A stretch of DNA of 64,000 nucleotides from Halorussus halobius (GTDB lineage Archaea; Halobacteriota; Halobacteria; Halobacteriales; Haladaptataceae): contig NZ_ML219773.1 in NCBI RefSeq assembly GCF_004765805.1, positions 496,001-560,000 on the forward strand. Reading direction: 5' to 3'. Below, in pieces: positions 9,037 through 15,009 of the stretch (its first letter is position 1; the number at the start of each line of letters is the position of its first letter). The notes below the pieces were generated by a model. It had not been told where the DNA came from. It worked only from the letters and a program-made list of their open reading frames with translations, and did not search any database. The position numbers and the translations under genes were made by a program.

Positions 9037-9516
9037 ATGCGCGTGACCCTCTCGGACGAGGCCCGCCAGTACATCGCGCTGTTCGAGGAGGAGACCGGCG
9101 CGACCGCTCGCGACTGCCTCGTAATCGAGGACGGCGACGACCCCGCGGACGGCGAGCCGGGCGCGGACGGCGAGCCGGGCGCGGACGGCGAGCGCGTCGT
9201 GTTCCTGGTCAAGCCGGGCGACATGGGCCGGGCCATCGGCTCGGGCGGCGAGACGGTCCGCGAACTCGAAGCGCGACTCGGCAGCGAGGTGACGCTGGTC
9301 GAGGACGCCGACACTACCGAGGCGTTCGTCGCCAACGCGCTCGCCCCGGCGGCGGTGTACAACGTCACCGTCAGCGAGGACGACGAGACGGTGGCGTACG
9401 CCGAGGTCGACGCGGCCGACACCGGCGTCGCCATCGGCGAGGGCGGCCGCAACATCGATATCGCCGAGCGGCTCGCCAAGCGCCACCACGACGTCGATGA
9501 CATCCAGTTGACGTGA
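9037..9516 (+). CDS. nusA: NusA-like transcription termination/elongation factor
   Basis: 159 residues. The archaeal form lacks the bacterial N-terminal and S1 domains and consists of two KH RNA-binding domains: GDMGRAIGSGGETVRELE and DTGVAIGEGGRNIDIAERL carry the two GxxG loops. It follows rpoA2 after 3 bases and ends the polymerase operon, its standard location. An acidic insert with two GADGEP copies sits at about residues 42-53. Confidence 0.93.
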   Translation: MRVTLSDEARQYIALFEEETGATARDCLVIEDGDDPADGEPGADGEPGADGERVVFLVKPGDMGRAIGSGGETVRELEARLGSEVTLVEDADTTEAFVANALAPAAVYNVTVSEDDETVAYAEVDAADTGVAIGEGGRNIDIAERLAKRHHDVDDIQLT

Positions 9517-9635
9517 GGTCGGAGTCGGTGTTTCCATCGGTCTGACGGCTCGCCCCCGAAATTTTAGGCCGGACGCCGCCGTTTCCGAGGGAAAAGTAGT
9601 TTTTCGATAGCGGCGACGTTCCCGTGGGGATGGGA

Positions 9636-10565
9636 ATGGATATCAATCGCACACGACAGACGGACGAGCTTCCGGACGTCGACGAGCGCGACCGGCGAAA
9701 CTTCCTGAAGGTACTGGGCGTGACGGGGAGCGTCGGGGCCGCGAGCGAGCTCTCGCTGGCCGACCTCCGCGGGGCGGTCGGCGCGGAGTCCGGGGAGCTG
9801 GCGACGATGGGCGAGGCCATCCGCGCGGACCTCGCTGGCGGGCTCGACGCCGGCCGGCTCGACGCCGCAGTGGCCGGCATCGAGGCGGCCGCCGCCGAAC
9901 TGCCCGCGGTCCGGGCGGCCGGATTTCCGGCCGAGCCGACGAGCGCGTACGGGGAGCTGACCGAACCGGCGTGGGACGCCTACCACCACCTCGCGGAGGT
10001 GGGGCTGTTCGCGTCGGCCGAGCGCCACCTGCCGGAGTTCACGCCCGAACACGTCCGCGCGACCGCCGCCGAACTCGTCCGGGCCGAACCCGCCATCGCG
10101 GCGCTGGCCGAGGTCGGACTCGACGAGCGCGAGCGAACCGCGGTGGTCGTCGACGCGGTCACCGAGAACCACCGGCTCGGCCAGTGGGTGTCGACCGCCA
10201 GCCTGCCGGCCGACCCGGAGGGGTACGACCCGTCGAACGTCGCACCGCTCCACCAGCGCGCGCTCGGCGGCGCGTTGCTCTGGATAGACGAACTCGACCA
10301 CCACCTCTGGCAGCGCGAGGCCGTGCTGACGGAGGCCCACCTCGACCGGGCGACGTGGGACGTCAAGCGGATGCTCGGCGGGGCGTACCTGCTCGTCACG
10401 GCGGCGGCGGACCTCGCCGGCCCGGAGGAGCTGTCCGACAGTCAACTCACCGCCGCGCTCGCCGGCGGGTCGGCGGTCGCCATTCGGGGGCAGGAGGCGC
10501 TGGCCGAGGACGTGTTCCGCGTCTCGGACGCCGACCGCGCGGCCGTGGGAGGTGAGTCTGCGTGA
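9636..10565 (+). CDS. Tat-signal protein of unknown function, partner of the downstream quinoprotein
   Basis: 309 residues from the ATG at 9636; in-frame GTG 9624 and ATG 9630 are alternatives. A twin-arginine motif D-R-R-N-F-L-K (R20, R21) is followed by a short, weakly hydrophobic segment, so Tat export is likely. The rest is Ala-rich, acidic and probably alpha-helical, with a His-rich DAYHHLAEVGL region and a later DELDHHLWQRE. No family is recognised. The stop overlaps the GTG start of the quinoprotein gene by 4 bases, so the two are translationally coupled. The Tat-carrying small subunit of gluconate 2-dehydrogenase is a functional analogy only. Confidence 0.75.
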   Translation: MDINRTRQTDELPDVDERDRRNFLKVLGVTGSVGAASELSLADLRGAVGAESGELATMGEAIRADLAGGLDAGRLDAAVAGIEAAAAELPAVRAAGFPAEPTSAYGELTEPAWDAYHHLAEVGLFASAERHLPEFTPEHVRATAAELVRAEPAIAALAEVGLDERERTAVVVDAVTENHRLGQWVSTASLPADPEGYDPSNVAPLHQRALGGALLWIDELDHHLWQREAVLTEAHLDRATWDVKRMLGGAYLLVTAAADLAGPEELSDSQLTAALAGGSAVAIRGQEALAEDVFRVSDADRAAVGGESA

Positions 10566-12265
10566 GTACCGACCGACCCCACGCCAGAGTCCGGCGCACC
10601 GACGAGGGAACGGTCGTCGAGTACCTCGCCGACGGGCCGACGACGGTCCGCCAGAGCGACCAGCAGATTCCGGAACTCGACGTGACCCAGGAGATGCTGC
10701 TCGACGCCGGCGACGACCCCGAGAGCTGGCTGATGTACGGTCACGGCTACGCCCAGCAGCGGTTCACGACCGCCGACGTCGTCGGCCCCGACACCGTCGG
10801 CGAGCTCTCGCTGGCGTACACCGTCGAGACCGAGGAGTCGGGCCACCACGAGGGGACGCCCGTGGTCGTGCCCTCCGACCCGCCGGTCATGTACCAGACC
10901 AACGGCCCCGGCGTGTTGCGCGCGATAAACGCCCGGTCGGGCGAGGTCATCTGGACCTACCGGTACGCGCCAGACGACAACAACCCCGACCAGCGGCCCG
11001 CCATCTACTGTTGCGGGTCGAACAATCGCGGGGTCGCCGTGCTGGGCGACAGGGTGTACATGACGACGCTCGACGCCAGTCTCGTCGCCATCGACCGCTA
11101 CACCGGCGAACAGCAGTGGTGGTACGACTCCGCGCCCACCGGCGAGGGGTATTCGGCGACGTGGGCACCCGTGATATACGACGGCTACATCCTCAACGGG
11201 AGCGCGGGCGGCGAGTACGGCGTTCGCGGGTTCATCGAGGCCATCGACGTCGAGTCGGGCGAGCGCGCGTGGCGGACGTGGATGACGCCCGAGGACCAGT
11301 GGATAGGTGACTCGTGGCGCAACGGCGCGGCCACCAACTGGATGACCATCACGGTCGACCCCGACGAGGACCTGCTGTACGCCAACGTCGGCAACCCCGG
11401 TCCCGACGTCAACGCCGCGGTCCGACCCGGCCCGAACGTCTACTCGGACTCGGTCGTCGCGCTCGACACCGCCTCGGGCGAGGTCGAGTGGTACTTCCAG
11501 GAGGTGGCCCACGACTGGTGGGACTGGGACGCCTCCACGCCGCCGGTGCTGTTCGAGGACGAGGTCGACGGGGAGAGCCGCCAGCTCGTCACTCACCCGG
11601 GCAAGACCGGCTGGAACTACCTGCTCGACGCCGGCGACGGGAAGCTCTACGAGCGCAGCCGGGAGTTCTGCCAGCACCTCAACATGTGGGCGCTGCCCCA
11701 GGAGACCCTCGAGGAGACGCCGTGGATAATGCCGTCGGCCGACGGCGGTTCGGAGTGGAATCCGTCGTCGTACAGCCCCGAGACGGGCTACCTCTACGTG
11801 AAGTCGATGAACTACCCGAGCAAGTTCCAGTGGGACGAGGTCGGCGAGTGGGAGTACCCCTCGACGTATCTGGGCGGGAGCTTCACCGTCTACCCGGAGA
11901 TGGACGACCCCGGCGAGGCTCCCGTCGAGTGGAACCAGCAGCAGGCCGTCTTCTCGGCGGTCGACCCGGTGAGCGGCGAGGTGGCCTGGCAGGAGTTCTG
12001 GCCCGAGTTCGCGATGGGCGGCTCGATGAGCACCGCGACCGGGCTCACCTTCACCGGCAACGGGGCCGGCGAGTTCGTCGCGTTCGACTCGGCCACCGGC
12101 GACCGGCTGTGGAGCCACCAGTTCGACGCCTCGGTCAACGCCAGTCCGATGAGCTGGTACGACCCGGCCGAGGGCACGCAGTACGTCGCGGTTCAGGCCG
12201 GCGGGGGCGGCCTGCGCTCGGTCCAGGAGGGCAACACCATCGCGGTGTTCTCGCTGTCCGAGTAG
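10562..12265 (+). CDS. PQQ-dependent (quinoprotein) alcohol dehydrogenase-like protein
   Basis: 567 residues from a GTG overlapping the previous stop. An eight-bladed PQQ beta-propeller is indicated by repeated ALDTASGEVEWYFQE-type blades and by hallmarks of the methanol/ethanol dehydrogenase family: adjacent cysteines in IYCCGSN (about 150-151), GGEYGVRGF (Glu near 218, calcium/PQQ region), GNPGPD, and HDWWDWDA (about 317-324) with the catalytic-type Asp. The expected role is oxidation of an alcohol or sugar outside the membrane, passing electrons to a quinone or copper protein. The protein has no signal peptide of its own (MSTDRPHARVRRTDEG), although the family acts outside the cytoplasm. 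Confidence 0.88.
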   Translation: MSTDRPHARVRRTDEGTVVEYLADGPTTVRQSDQQIPELDVTQEMLLDAGDDPESWLMYGHGYAQQRFTTADVVGPDTVGELSLAYTVETEESGHHEGTPVVVPSDPPVMYQTNGPGVLRAINARSGEVIWTYRYAPDDNNPDQRPAIYCCGSNNRGVAVLGDRVYMTTLDASLVAIDRYTGEQQWWYDSAPTGEGYSATWAPVIYDGYILNGSAGGEYGVRGFIEAIDVESGERAWRTWMTPEDQWIGDSWRNGAATNWMTITVDPDEDLLYANVGNPGPDVNAAVRPGPNVYSDSVVALDTASGEVEWYFQEVAHDWWDWDASTPPVLFEDEVDGESRQLVTHPGKTGWNYLLDAGDGKLYERSREFCQHLNMWALPQETLEETPWIMPSADGGSEWNPSSYSPETGYLYVKSMNYPSKFQWDEVGEWEYPSTYLGGSFTVYPEMDDPGEAPVEWNQQQAVFSAVDPVSGEVAWQEFWPEFAMGGSMSTATGLTFTGNGAGEFVAFDSATGDRLWSHQFDASVNASPMSWYDPAEGTQYVAVQAGGGGLRSVQEGNTIAVFSLSE

Positions 12266-12433
12266 CGCGGGCTCGCCGACCCCGCGGCGCGGGGACGCGC
12301 CCCCGCGAGCGACTCTACCGACCGGACCGGGGCTAAGCGGCGCACAGAACGCGTGGCCGAGACGCGCTCAGATTCCATAATCCGCCCCTATCGCGTCGTC
12401 TGCGCCCGTTTCGACCGCTCGAAAGAGGGAGGC

Positions 12434-12439
12434 TTAAGT
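12434..12439 (+). promoter_or_regulatory. TATA-like box of rpsL
   Basis: TTAAGT within GGCTTAAGTAG, centred 28 bases before the rpsL ATG. This spacing puts the transcription start at or next to the ATG, so the rpsL-rpsG mRNA is probably leaderless. Confidence 0.6.
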
Positions 12440-12464
12440 AGCTCCGACGGGTAGGCCACGCCAT

Positions 12465-12893
12465 ATGGCGAACGGCAAGTACGCGGCTCGCAAGCTGAAG
12501 AAGGACCGCCAGAACCACCGGTGGTCCGACTCCGACTACGCCCGACGCGAGCGCGGCCTCGAGGAGAAGTCCGACCCCCTCGAAGGCGCGCCTCAGGGCC
12601 GTGGCATCGTCCTCGAAAAAGTTGGCATCGAGGCCAAACAGCCCAACTCGGCCATCCGGAAGTGCGTCCGGGTCCAGCTCATCAAGAACGGCAAGCAGGT
12701 CACCGCGTTCTGTCCCGGCGACGGCGCGATCTCCTTTATCGACGAGCACGACGAGGTGACCATCGCGGGCATCGGCGGTGCGAAGGGCCGCGCGATGGGC
12801 GACCTCGGTGGCGTCAACTACAAGGTCGAGAAGGTCAACGGCGTGTCGCTCATCGAACTGGTCCGCGGGAACGCCGAAAAGCCGGTGCGATAA
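12465..12893 (+). CDS. rpsL: 30S ribosomal protein S12
   Basis: 142 residues, the archaeal/eukaryotic (uS12) type. [19 protein letters not shown] is the universally conserved core at the decoding site; it contains the KQPNSA segment in which streptomycin-resistance substitutions occur in bacteria. The start at 12465 gives the standard [19 protein letters not shown] end. It is followed by rpsG after 2 bases. In most haloarchaea this pair lies close to nusA; here a quinoprotein pair intervenes. Confidence 0.97.
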
Positions 12894-13611: not shown

Positions 13612-15009
13612 ATGGACGAGACGTCGACGCGGCGGGCGTTGCTCGCCGCCGCCGGCACGGTCGCGGTCGCCGGCTGTACGGGACGCGTCGCCGAGGAATC
13701 GACCACGAGCGCGGCCGACTCGACCGCGGCCGAAACCGTCGGGACCACTACGGCCGACGACGCGACCGAGACGCCCGAGTACGAGTTCGACCTCGCTCAC
13801 GACGAGACAGCGTGGGAGCGCTACGACCCCGACTGGTCGGGCCGGACCACCCCGCCCGTCCCGGTCGACCTCGAACCGGAGGTGCTGGTCGAGAACCTCG
13901 AAATTCCGTGGGACCTGTCGTTCGCGCCGACCGGGGAGCTGTTCATCACCGAGCGCACCGGCCGCATCCTGCGGTTCGAGTCGGGCGAGGTGAGCGAGGT
14001 GACCGCGCCGGGCGGCGTCCTCGATGCCGAAGCGATGCCCACCGACGTCGACGAGCGGACGTGGTTCATCGAGGGCGGCGAGGGTGGCATGCTCGGGGTC
14101 GCGGTCCACCCGGCGTACCCCGACGCGCCGTACGTCTACGCCTACTACACCACTCAACCGGACGGCGAACCCAAGACCAACCGCGTGGTCAGGTTCGACG
14201 TGAGCGCCGCCGACCCCGCCGCCACCGAGCAGGTGCTCGTCGACGGGATTCCGGGCGACGCCATCCACAACGGCGGCCGCATCGCGTTCGGCCCGGCGAA
14301 CTACCTCTGGGTGACGGTCGGCGACGCGGGCGAGAAGCAACTCGCGCAGGACCCCGACGCGCTCCCCGGGAGCGTCCTCCGACTGACGCCCGGGGGCGAC
14401 CCGCATCCCGACAACCCCGACGCGGGCGACCCCCGGGTGTTCACCTACGGCCACCGCAACCCGCAGGGCGTCACGTGGCTTCCGGACGCCCGGCCCGTCG
14501 TCACCGAGCACGGCCCGAGCGGCCGCGACGAGACCAACCTCCTCCGGCCCGGCCACAACTACGGCTGGCCCGAGGTGCGGACTGCCGAGGAGTACGCGGC
14601 CGACGACGAGTACGCCCATCCGCTGACCAACACCGGCGAGGAGTCGTGGGGCATCTGTGGCTGTACCTTCTACACCGGCGACCGGGTGCCCGAGTGGACG
14701 AACCGGCTCGTGGTCGGGACGCTCATCGGGATGCACGTCAACGTCGTGACGCTCGACCGCGAGGGCGAGCAGCCGCCCCGCGACGACGGCGCGGAGGCGT
14801 TCGCCGCCGACTGGTACGACGACGCGCTCGCGGCGACCTCCCACCGAACGCTCGACGACGCGTTGGGCCGGGTCCGCCACGTCGAGCAGGGACCGGACGG
14901 CTACCTCTACGCCATCACGTCGAATCGGGACGGCCGGCCCACGGCCGACGAGCCGTTCCCCAGGGAGCGCGACGACGTGCTGGTCCGGTTGACGCCGGCG
15001 GACGAATAG
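13612..15009 (+). CDS. PQQ-dependent sugar dehydrogenase, Tat lipoprotein
   Basis: 465 residues. The N-terminus (TRRALLAAAGTVAVAGC) has twin arginines at 7-8 and a lipobox ending at C22, so it is predicted to be exported by Tat and lipid-anchored. After a Thr/Ser/Glu-rich linker, the beta-propeller of the soluble glucose dehydrogenase/YliI family starts at LEIPWDLSFAPTGELFITERTG. Other signatures are GGEGGMLGVAVHP, IHNGGRIAFGP, FTYGHRNPQG and TEHGPSGRDETN. It likely oxidises aldose sugars outside the membrane. The TATA-like segment 24-30 bases before the ATG implies a leaderless mRNA and overlaps a DtxR-like operator. Confidence 0.88.
   Translation: MDETSTRRALLAAAGTVAVAGCTGRVAEESTTSAADSTAAETVGTTTADDATETPEYEFDLAHDETAWERYDPDWSGRTTPPVPVDLEPEVLVENLEIPWDLSFAPTGELFITERTGRILRFESGEVSEVTAPGGVLDAEAMPTDVDERTWFIEGGEGGMLGVAVHPAYPDAPYVYAYYTTQPDGEPKTNRVVRFDVSAADPAATEQVLVDGIPGDAIHNGGRIAFGPANYLWVTVGDAGEKQLAQDPDALPGSVLRLTPGGDPHPDNPDAGDPRVFTYGHRNPQGVTWLPDARPVVTEHGPSGRDETNLLRPGHNYGWPEVRTAEEYAADDEYAHPLTNTGEESWGICGCTFYTGDRVPEWTNRLVVGTLIGMHVNVVTLDREGEQPPRDDGAEAFAADWYDDALAATSHRTLDDALGRVRHVEQGPDGYLYAITSNRDGRPTADEPFPRERDDVLVRLTPADE

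Follow-up and report, generated by a model that had tools for sequence, protein, structure and literature searches.

A recurrent haloarchaeal gene pair joins a quinoprotein lacking an export signal to a helical partner, which in the window has a Tat-like segment

The window analysed here, 64,000 nucleotides of Halorussus halobius (contig NZ_ML219773.1, positions 496,001 to 560,000), encodes a quinoprotein, Q, that has no N-terminal signal and lies directly behind the gene for T, a helical protein with a Tat-like N-terminal segment. At the level of sequence, comparison across haloarchaea establishes that T and Q are recurrently paired, that Q is signal-less, that the Tat segment of T is ancestral and was lost twice, and that Q proteins with markers of a location outside the cytoplasm fall in one clade. 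The window pair is best explained by hitchhiker export of Q on the T signal, a fairly likely reading. T and Q would be a dedicated pair in which Q, a propeller of the PQQ-dehydrogenase type, folds in the cytoplasm and binds T, and in the window lineage the pair would cross the membrane via Tat on the T signal; folded Q probably leaves the cell together with its partner here. The helical body of T would be an obligate partner or assembly factor, with the N-terminal signal as an optional part.

The window pair and its recurrence in haloarchaea

T is read from ATG 9636 (in-frame alternatives, ATG 9630 and GTG 9624) to a stop codon at 10563-10565, and Q from GTG 10562 to a stop at 12265 (Table 1). 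An in-frame stop lies two codons 5' of the Q start and the open frame counts 569 codons for a protein of 567 residues, so no upstream signal has been overlooked. The pair sits between nusA and the gene for ribosomal protein S12 (names from reading of the translations), within an RNA polymerase/nusA-rps12 gene cluster at 9037-12893, and these neighbours are conserved in the same genus (nusA in L069, L070 and L071; S12 in L068, L069 and L071). The closest T among named records is that of Halorussus litoreus (82% identity), and the window genome holds a second T-Q pair, L157. Near the window pair, 13612-15009 (+) encodes a glucose/sorbosone dehydrogenase-type protein (PF07995, 7.9e-78), a second PQQ-type enzyme with its own RR signal and a lipobox-like Cys (MDETSTRRALLAAAGTVAVAGC).

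Table 1. Positions of the T and Q genes and their features in the window
Feature	Position	Strand	Basis
T: 309-aa all-helical partner, Tat-like N-terminal segment, no named family	9636..10565	+	sequence, Pfam/NCBIfam, AlphaFold
Tat-like segment of T, ERDRRNFLKVLGVTGSVGAAS, residues 17-37	9684..9746	+	sequence; TIGR01409 stretch at residues 19-37, 14.2 bits, below cut-off
Q: 567-aa quinoprotein alcohol-dehydrogenase-like beta-propeller, no N-terminal signal	10562..12265	+	PF01011 8e-64; TIGR03075 373 bits; PDB 1kv9
4-bp overlap GTGA: Q GTG start / T TGA stop	10562..10565	+	sequence
Adjacent Cys pair C150-C151 of Q	11009..11014	+	sequence, aligned homologues

In a Pfam profile search, Q matches the PF01011 propeller; its TIGR03075 score lies below the subfamily cut-off of 480, and its best PDB relative is the type II quinohemoprotein alcohol dehydrogenase 1kv9 (1.4e-64). 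Like PQQ alcohol and methanol dehydrogenases (PF01011, TIGR03075; PDB 1kv9, 6zcv), it combines the propeller with a Cys pair and with residues that line up with the Ca/PQQ site in quinoprotein alcohol dehydrogenases of known structure, namely E97, R156, T200, E218, T258, W260, N278, D318 and K348. Thirteen site positions were compared in all 103 listed Q, at which the window protein reads ECCRTSETWNDKW. A vicinal Cys pair together with PQQ-site residues is typical of enzymes outside the cytoplasm. The Q of L137-L168 lack the Cys pair and most also lack E97, with the Ca-ligand Glu changed too in L155-L162 and L168; judged by these residues, this group may possibly no longer be PQQ enzymes. In the Q of L071, Gly takes the place of the catalytic Asp. 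A profile search for PqqC, which found it in the positive control Azospirillum, gave 0/391 haloarchaeal genomes above cut-off, so PQQ for Q, whose PQQ binding is putative, would need scavenging or import, or another synthesis route.

Of the 103 listed haloarchaeal Q, 102 have no N-terminal signal, and the remaining one, L169, is a broken gene. Within residues 1-70, the peak 13-residue hydrophobicity stays at or below 0.93 in these 102 and reaches 1.02 in L169, and scanning the whole upstream open frame of all 103 gave nothing except L169. By contrast, the PQQ dehydrogenases examined from bacteria, unlike the window Q, which is below the TIGR03075 cut-off, have signals of their own and no T: N-terminal hydrophobic stretches of 1.28-2.24, typical signal sequences, occur in 8/8 relatives, and no T-like gene lies upstream in the seven annotated records. 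The eighth carries no annotation, and none of the eight is among the eight plasmid records with T described below. Bacteria do have homologues that carry a signal and lack the partner, an outcome that the preliminary description had named as evidence against its proposal; the haloarchaeal family offers no exception. Haloarchaeal Q has lost an export signal of its own.

A search for T in 391 haloarchaeal genomes matched 109 places in 72 genomes; two of these places (L174, L175) are chance matches. The corresponding Q survey, scoring the best three candidates per genome, gave at least 103 strong places (>=236 bits); unpaired divergent Q may escape such a survey, as the Q of L170-L172 did. Among the matches listed, T lies directly upstream on the same strand in 103/103 cases, and in L170-L172, additional to these, Q follows T by 1-3 bp, so that 106/106 intact loci are paired, a recurrence beyond chance. 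L169 and L173 are decaying loci, the former with a broken Q and the latter a fragmentary pair. Across pairs, identity in T tracks identity in Q (r = 0.89) and nearest neighbours agree in 77/101 (L136 and L169, with partial or broken Q, are excluded here and from the tree). In a plasmid collection, Q relatives occur in 568 records and T in 8, all haloarchaeal. A phylum-wide T profile search, with the best nine candidates per genome scored, found T in at least 4/246 genomes: that of the window, plus three from the same order.

The Tat-like segment of T and markers on Q

The N-terminus of the window T, DRRNFLKVLGVTGSVGAAS, contains RRNFLK followed by a weakly hydrophobic stretch. It scores below both signal-profile cut-offs (TIGR01409, 14.2 bits against 16.7; PF10518, 13.3 bits against 22.7) and has no clear AxA cleavage site; at E<=1, TIGR01409 matches 39/103 and PF10518 32/103 of the T homologues. 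RR with a hydrophobic stretch (>=1.34) is found in 41/103 T. The other 62 have no Tat-like segment (values up to 0.38, plus L145 at 1.24), and their aligned segment is non-hydrophobic with the pattern RxL..LGV. The threshold of 1.2 was chosen after the two-peaked distribution had been seen, and L145, just over it, was moved by hand to the no-signal class. Since the rule also fires in 57/359 neighbouring acidic ORFs, it is weak when used alone. The preliminary description had drawn, from the window, a quinoprotein with adjacent Cys and Ca/PQQ motifs, starting without a signal and overlapped by four bases by a Tat-signal protein of no known family, and this picture holds, with the signal of T scoring as given above; the conservation of the gene pair on which it had called for a check is borne out by the 106 intact loci.

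Apart from Tat-signal models, T has no Pfam or NCBIfam match. Gluconate 2-dehydrogenase subunit 3-like hitchhiker proteins form a Pfam family, and no match to that profile is listed for T in Pfam or NCBIfam. AlphaFold predicts a confident all-helical protein (pLDDT 91, pTM 0.90), in which residues 17-45 are helical and ordered (pLDDT per block about 77-91), seemingly integrated in the fold, which argues against a plain cleavable signal; the underlying alignment includes homologues without a signal, yet this segment is ordered. Foldseek returned nothing at E<=0.001 against PDB, and the T sequence profile gave a single, unconvincing PDB match (E 0.45). Matches from VIA-align 2 (best Z 6.3) were only designed or common helical bundles, and we claim no fold relative. 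A single-chain AlphaFold model of T and Q from L095 (read-through, 44 rows) reached pTM 0.64, about the value expected if both parts were placed independently; it yields no confident complex and speaks neither for nor against one.

The history of the segment was read from a quick tree, with some long branches, that comprises 101 Q and takes eight bacterial rows as its root. It shows the T signal as ancestral, with two losses, one in a clade with 55 members and the other in a clade with 6. Markers of a location outside the cytoplasm lie on ten Q. Five signal-less Q (L158, L161, L167, L170, L172) end in a PGF-CTERM-like tail, in which a Thr-rich stalk leads to PGF, then to a hydrophobic stretch and finally to basic residues. 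Their N-termini are charged and lack a signal. A variant, PGLG, occurs in L171. Of the five, L158 passes PF18204 (19.3, cut-off 18.8), L158 and L161 fall below the TIGR04126 cut-off of 24.5 bits (18.6 and 22.1 bits), and L167 is unlisted there at E<=0.1. Five others (L156, L157, L159, L160, L162) bear an N-terminal blue-copper extension, which in L157 scores 25.5 bits against PF00127 Copper-bind (cut-off 21.2); in all five genomes the C protein described below matches just 5' of the Q core. All ten marked Q have a T with an RRxFLKALG-like segment, and those of the ten loci that are on the tree lie in a single basal clade, not the window's. There is good evidence in these sequences for export of the marked Q on the T signal and, by homology with the marked group, for that of the window Q.

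Several observations count against export on the T signal: the scores of the window T below the signal cut-offs and its want of a clear AxA site, the ordered AlphaFold segment, the linked T-Q model, the confinement of the outside markers to a clade other than the window's, and the 62/103 T without a signal. The low scores, the ordered segment and the non-hydrophobic RxL..LGV aligned with it in those 62 would suit a reading in which RRxFLK is a structural helix that merely resembles a signal and T-Q stays in the cytoplasm in every lineage. We consider this unlikely: PGF-CTERM-like tails and blue-copper fusions, on five Q each, would be odd in the cytoplasm, the hydrophobic RRxFL form of T is ancestral on the rooted tree, and the vicinal Cys and PQQ-site residues point outside the cytoplasm.

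Signal loss, downstream cupredoxins and the ferredoxin neighbourhood

Because 62/103 T have no Tat-like segment, co-export on the T signal cannot fully account for the pair; because T is kept in all pairs, signal or not, its body appears to be a dedicated partner, to which the signal is an optional addition. Among the 62 signal-less T pairs, 29 have a Tat-signal surface protein closely downstream, mostly a cupredoxin, and 33 have no Tat signal found in the locus. In the clade of 55, 23 pairs are followed after 24-53 bp by a Tat-signal protein, C, and 32 have no such gene; in the clade of 6, all six have a Tat-signal protein starting -38 to +5 bp from the Q end. Both T and C carry signals in L073, which branches close to where the first loss begins. 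Of 39 downstream proteins scanned, PF00127 Copper-bind matches 28 and PF10518 matches 15; two of the 29 (L137, L153) have no copper domain on reading. C also lies 113-121 bp downstream in seven T-signal pairs (L094, L095, L097-L099, L101, L103). L111, L116, L129, L165 and L166 were manually excluded from the downstream Tat genes, and L158 and L161, which have unrelated Tat lipoproteins downstream, still appear as C-positive in the tree drawing. With only two losses, their link with C does not lend itself to statistical testing. In L140, a 715-aa Tat-signal protein with a copper-binding domain and a GSDH-type dehydrogenase domain is encoded convergent to Q, 2884 bp past the start of the T match, with similar loci in L139-L166.

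In the preferred reading, the two losses of the ancestral T signal fell in lineages that have a Tat-signal C behind Q or no remaining signal. Where C is encoded directly behind Q, it probably took over export; electrons may pass from Q to the cupredoxin, and T and Q would form a physical complex. The Tat-signal protein directly downstream in 29/62 signal-less T pairs, and the six matches to the C protein in the window genome, could be taken further, to mean that Q and T everywhere hitch on a third, cupredoxin-type Tat protein which the window lineage encodes elsewhere. This is quite improbable, in that no C gene adjoins the Halorussus pair, Halorussus T retains its own Tat segment, and nine genomes with signal-less pairs have zero C matches.

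The 33 pairs without a signal on T or C form one clade and hence represent one event. Within 4 kb of them lie genes for a halobacterial-type 2Fe-2S ferredoxin (28 pairs), a CDC48-like AAA ATPase (27; the name rests on reading of the translation), a coiled-coil protein (24) and an amphi-Trp protein (20). At least one of the four accompanies 33/33 no-signal pairs, against 0/41 T-signal and 2/29 C pairs; in L104-L135 the CDC48-like ATPase, amphi-Trp protein, coiled-coil protein and ferredoxin paralogue form a conserved set around the signal-less pairs. A representative locus ferredoxin scores 199.5 bits against NF041393 (cut-off 150), and the annotated plasmid locus L184, from Natrinema sp. SYSU A 869, has the order T, Q, 'ferredoxin Fer'. 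Searches of ten genomes of the no-signal state indicate that the ferredoxin in the T-Q locus is an extra paralogue. Seven (G060, G156, G194, G226, G238, G248, G292) have three copies over the cut-off and G130 has two, the locus copy included, and G137 and G213 have three and four, with no copy within the locus as fetched; the count is two in each of G000, G173, G290 and G374. Nine genomes with only no-signal pairs (G060, G195, G226, G194, G279, G292, G344, G238, G156) have no match to C genome-wide; other no-signal genomes do match C. The Q of the no-signal pairs keep all 13 compared site residues (L136 is cut by a contig end).

We tentatively propose, as a possibility short of an even chance, that in two lineages a cupredoxin-type partner took the signal over from T and that the 33 pairs gave up export and hold a cytoplasmic quinoprotein passing electrons to a dedicated ferredoxin paralogue. 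We know of no PQQ-type alcohol dehydrogenase working inside the cell, and the no-signal Q would be the first. Against a cytoplasmic quinoprotein stand the absence of PqqC (0/391 genomes) and an exporter that may be unlinked. The preliminary description's co-export through the T signal survives in part: Q is signal-less, T is always upstream, and all T in the marked-Q clade bear a Tat segment; as the whole reason for the pair it fails, as 62/103 T have no Tat segment, 29 of these having a third Tat protein and 33 none. That T is instead a cytoplasmic assembly chaperone, with Q exported by an unrecognised signal, would explain a role of T beyond export where it is retained signal-less (62/103) and is very improbable, given that Q has no N-terminal signal of any kind and that RRxFLK on T goes unexplained where Q bear surface anchors.

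Relation to known systems and significance

The hitchhiker mechanism is already known from FAD dehydrogenases: in PMC6719666, the gamma (hitchhiker) subunit of Burkholderia cepacia FAD glucose dehydrogenase is described as necessary for folding and secretion of alpha, and its authors found no closely similar structure. Like gamma, T is a small helical Tat-signal protein encoded with a signal-less oxidoreductase; the B. cepacia enzyme, unlike Q, has a GMC/FAD fold and its partner has 168 aa against the 309 aa of T, which moreover has no Pfam or NCBIfam family except Tat-signal models and is often signal-less in haloarchaea. The cupredoxin domains in C and fused to some Q resemble haloarchaeal halocyanin-type proteins, and the tails of others resemble those of PGF-CTERM surface proteins, unlike which these Q have no N-terminal signal. 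Literature searches on haloarchaeal quinoproteins and PQQ, or on Tat hitchhikers, yielded no description of a T-Q pair among the papers listed, and a literature search found no paper on a quinoprotein with PGF-CTERM.

New here are the T family, an archaeal quinoprotein as cargo, the probable transfer of the signal onto a cupredoxin, and the state with ferredoxin but no signal. If the preferred reading of hitchhiker export on the T signal is true, T-Q would be an archaeal Tat hitchhiker pair whose cargo is of PQQ type and whose helper belongs to a family outside the Pfam and NCBIfam profiles. The signal-less Q with a surface-anchor motif are relevant to how archaeosortase substrates cross the membrane. 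The distribution of T and Q amounts to a natural experiment on which subunit must bear the signal, and on whether redirection of a quinoprotein to the cytoplasm and to ferredoxin is possible.
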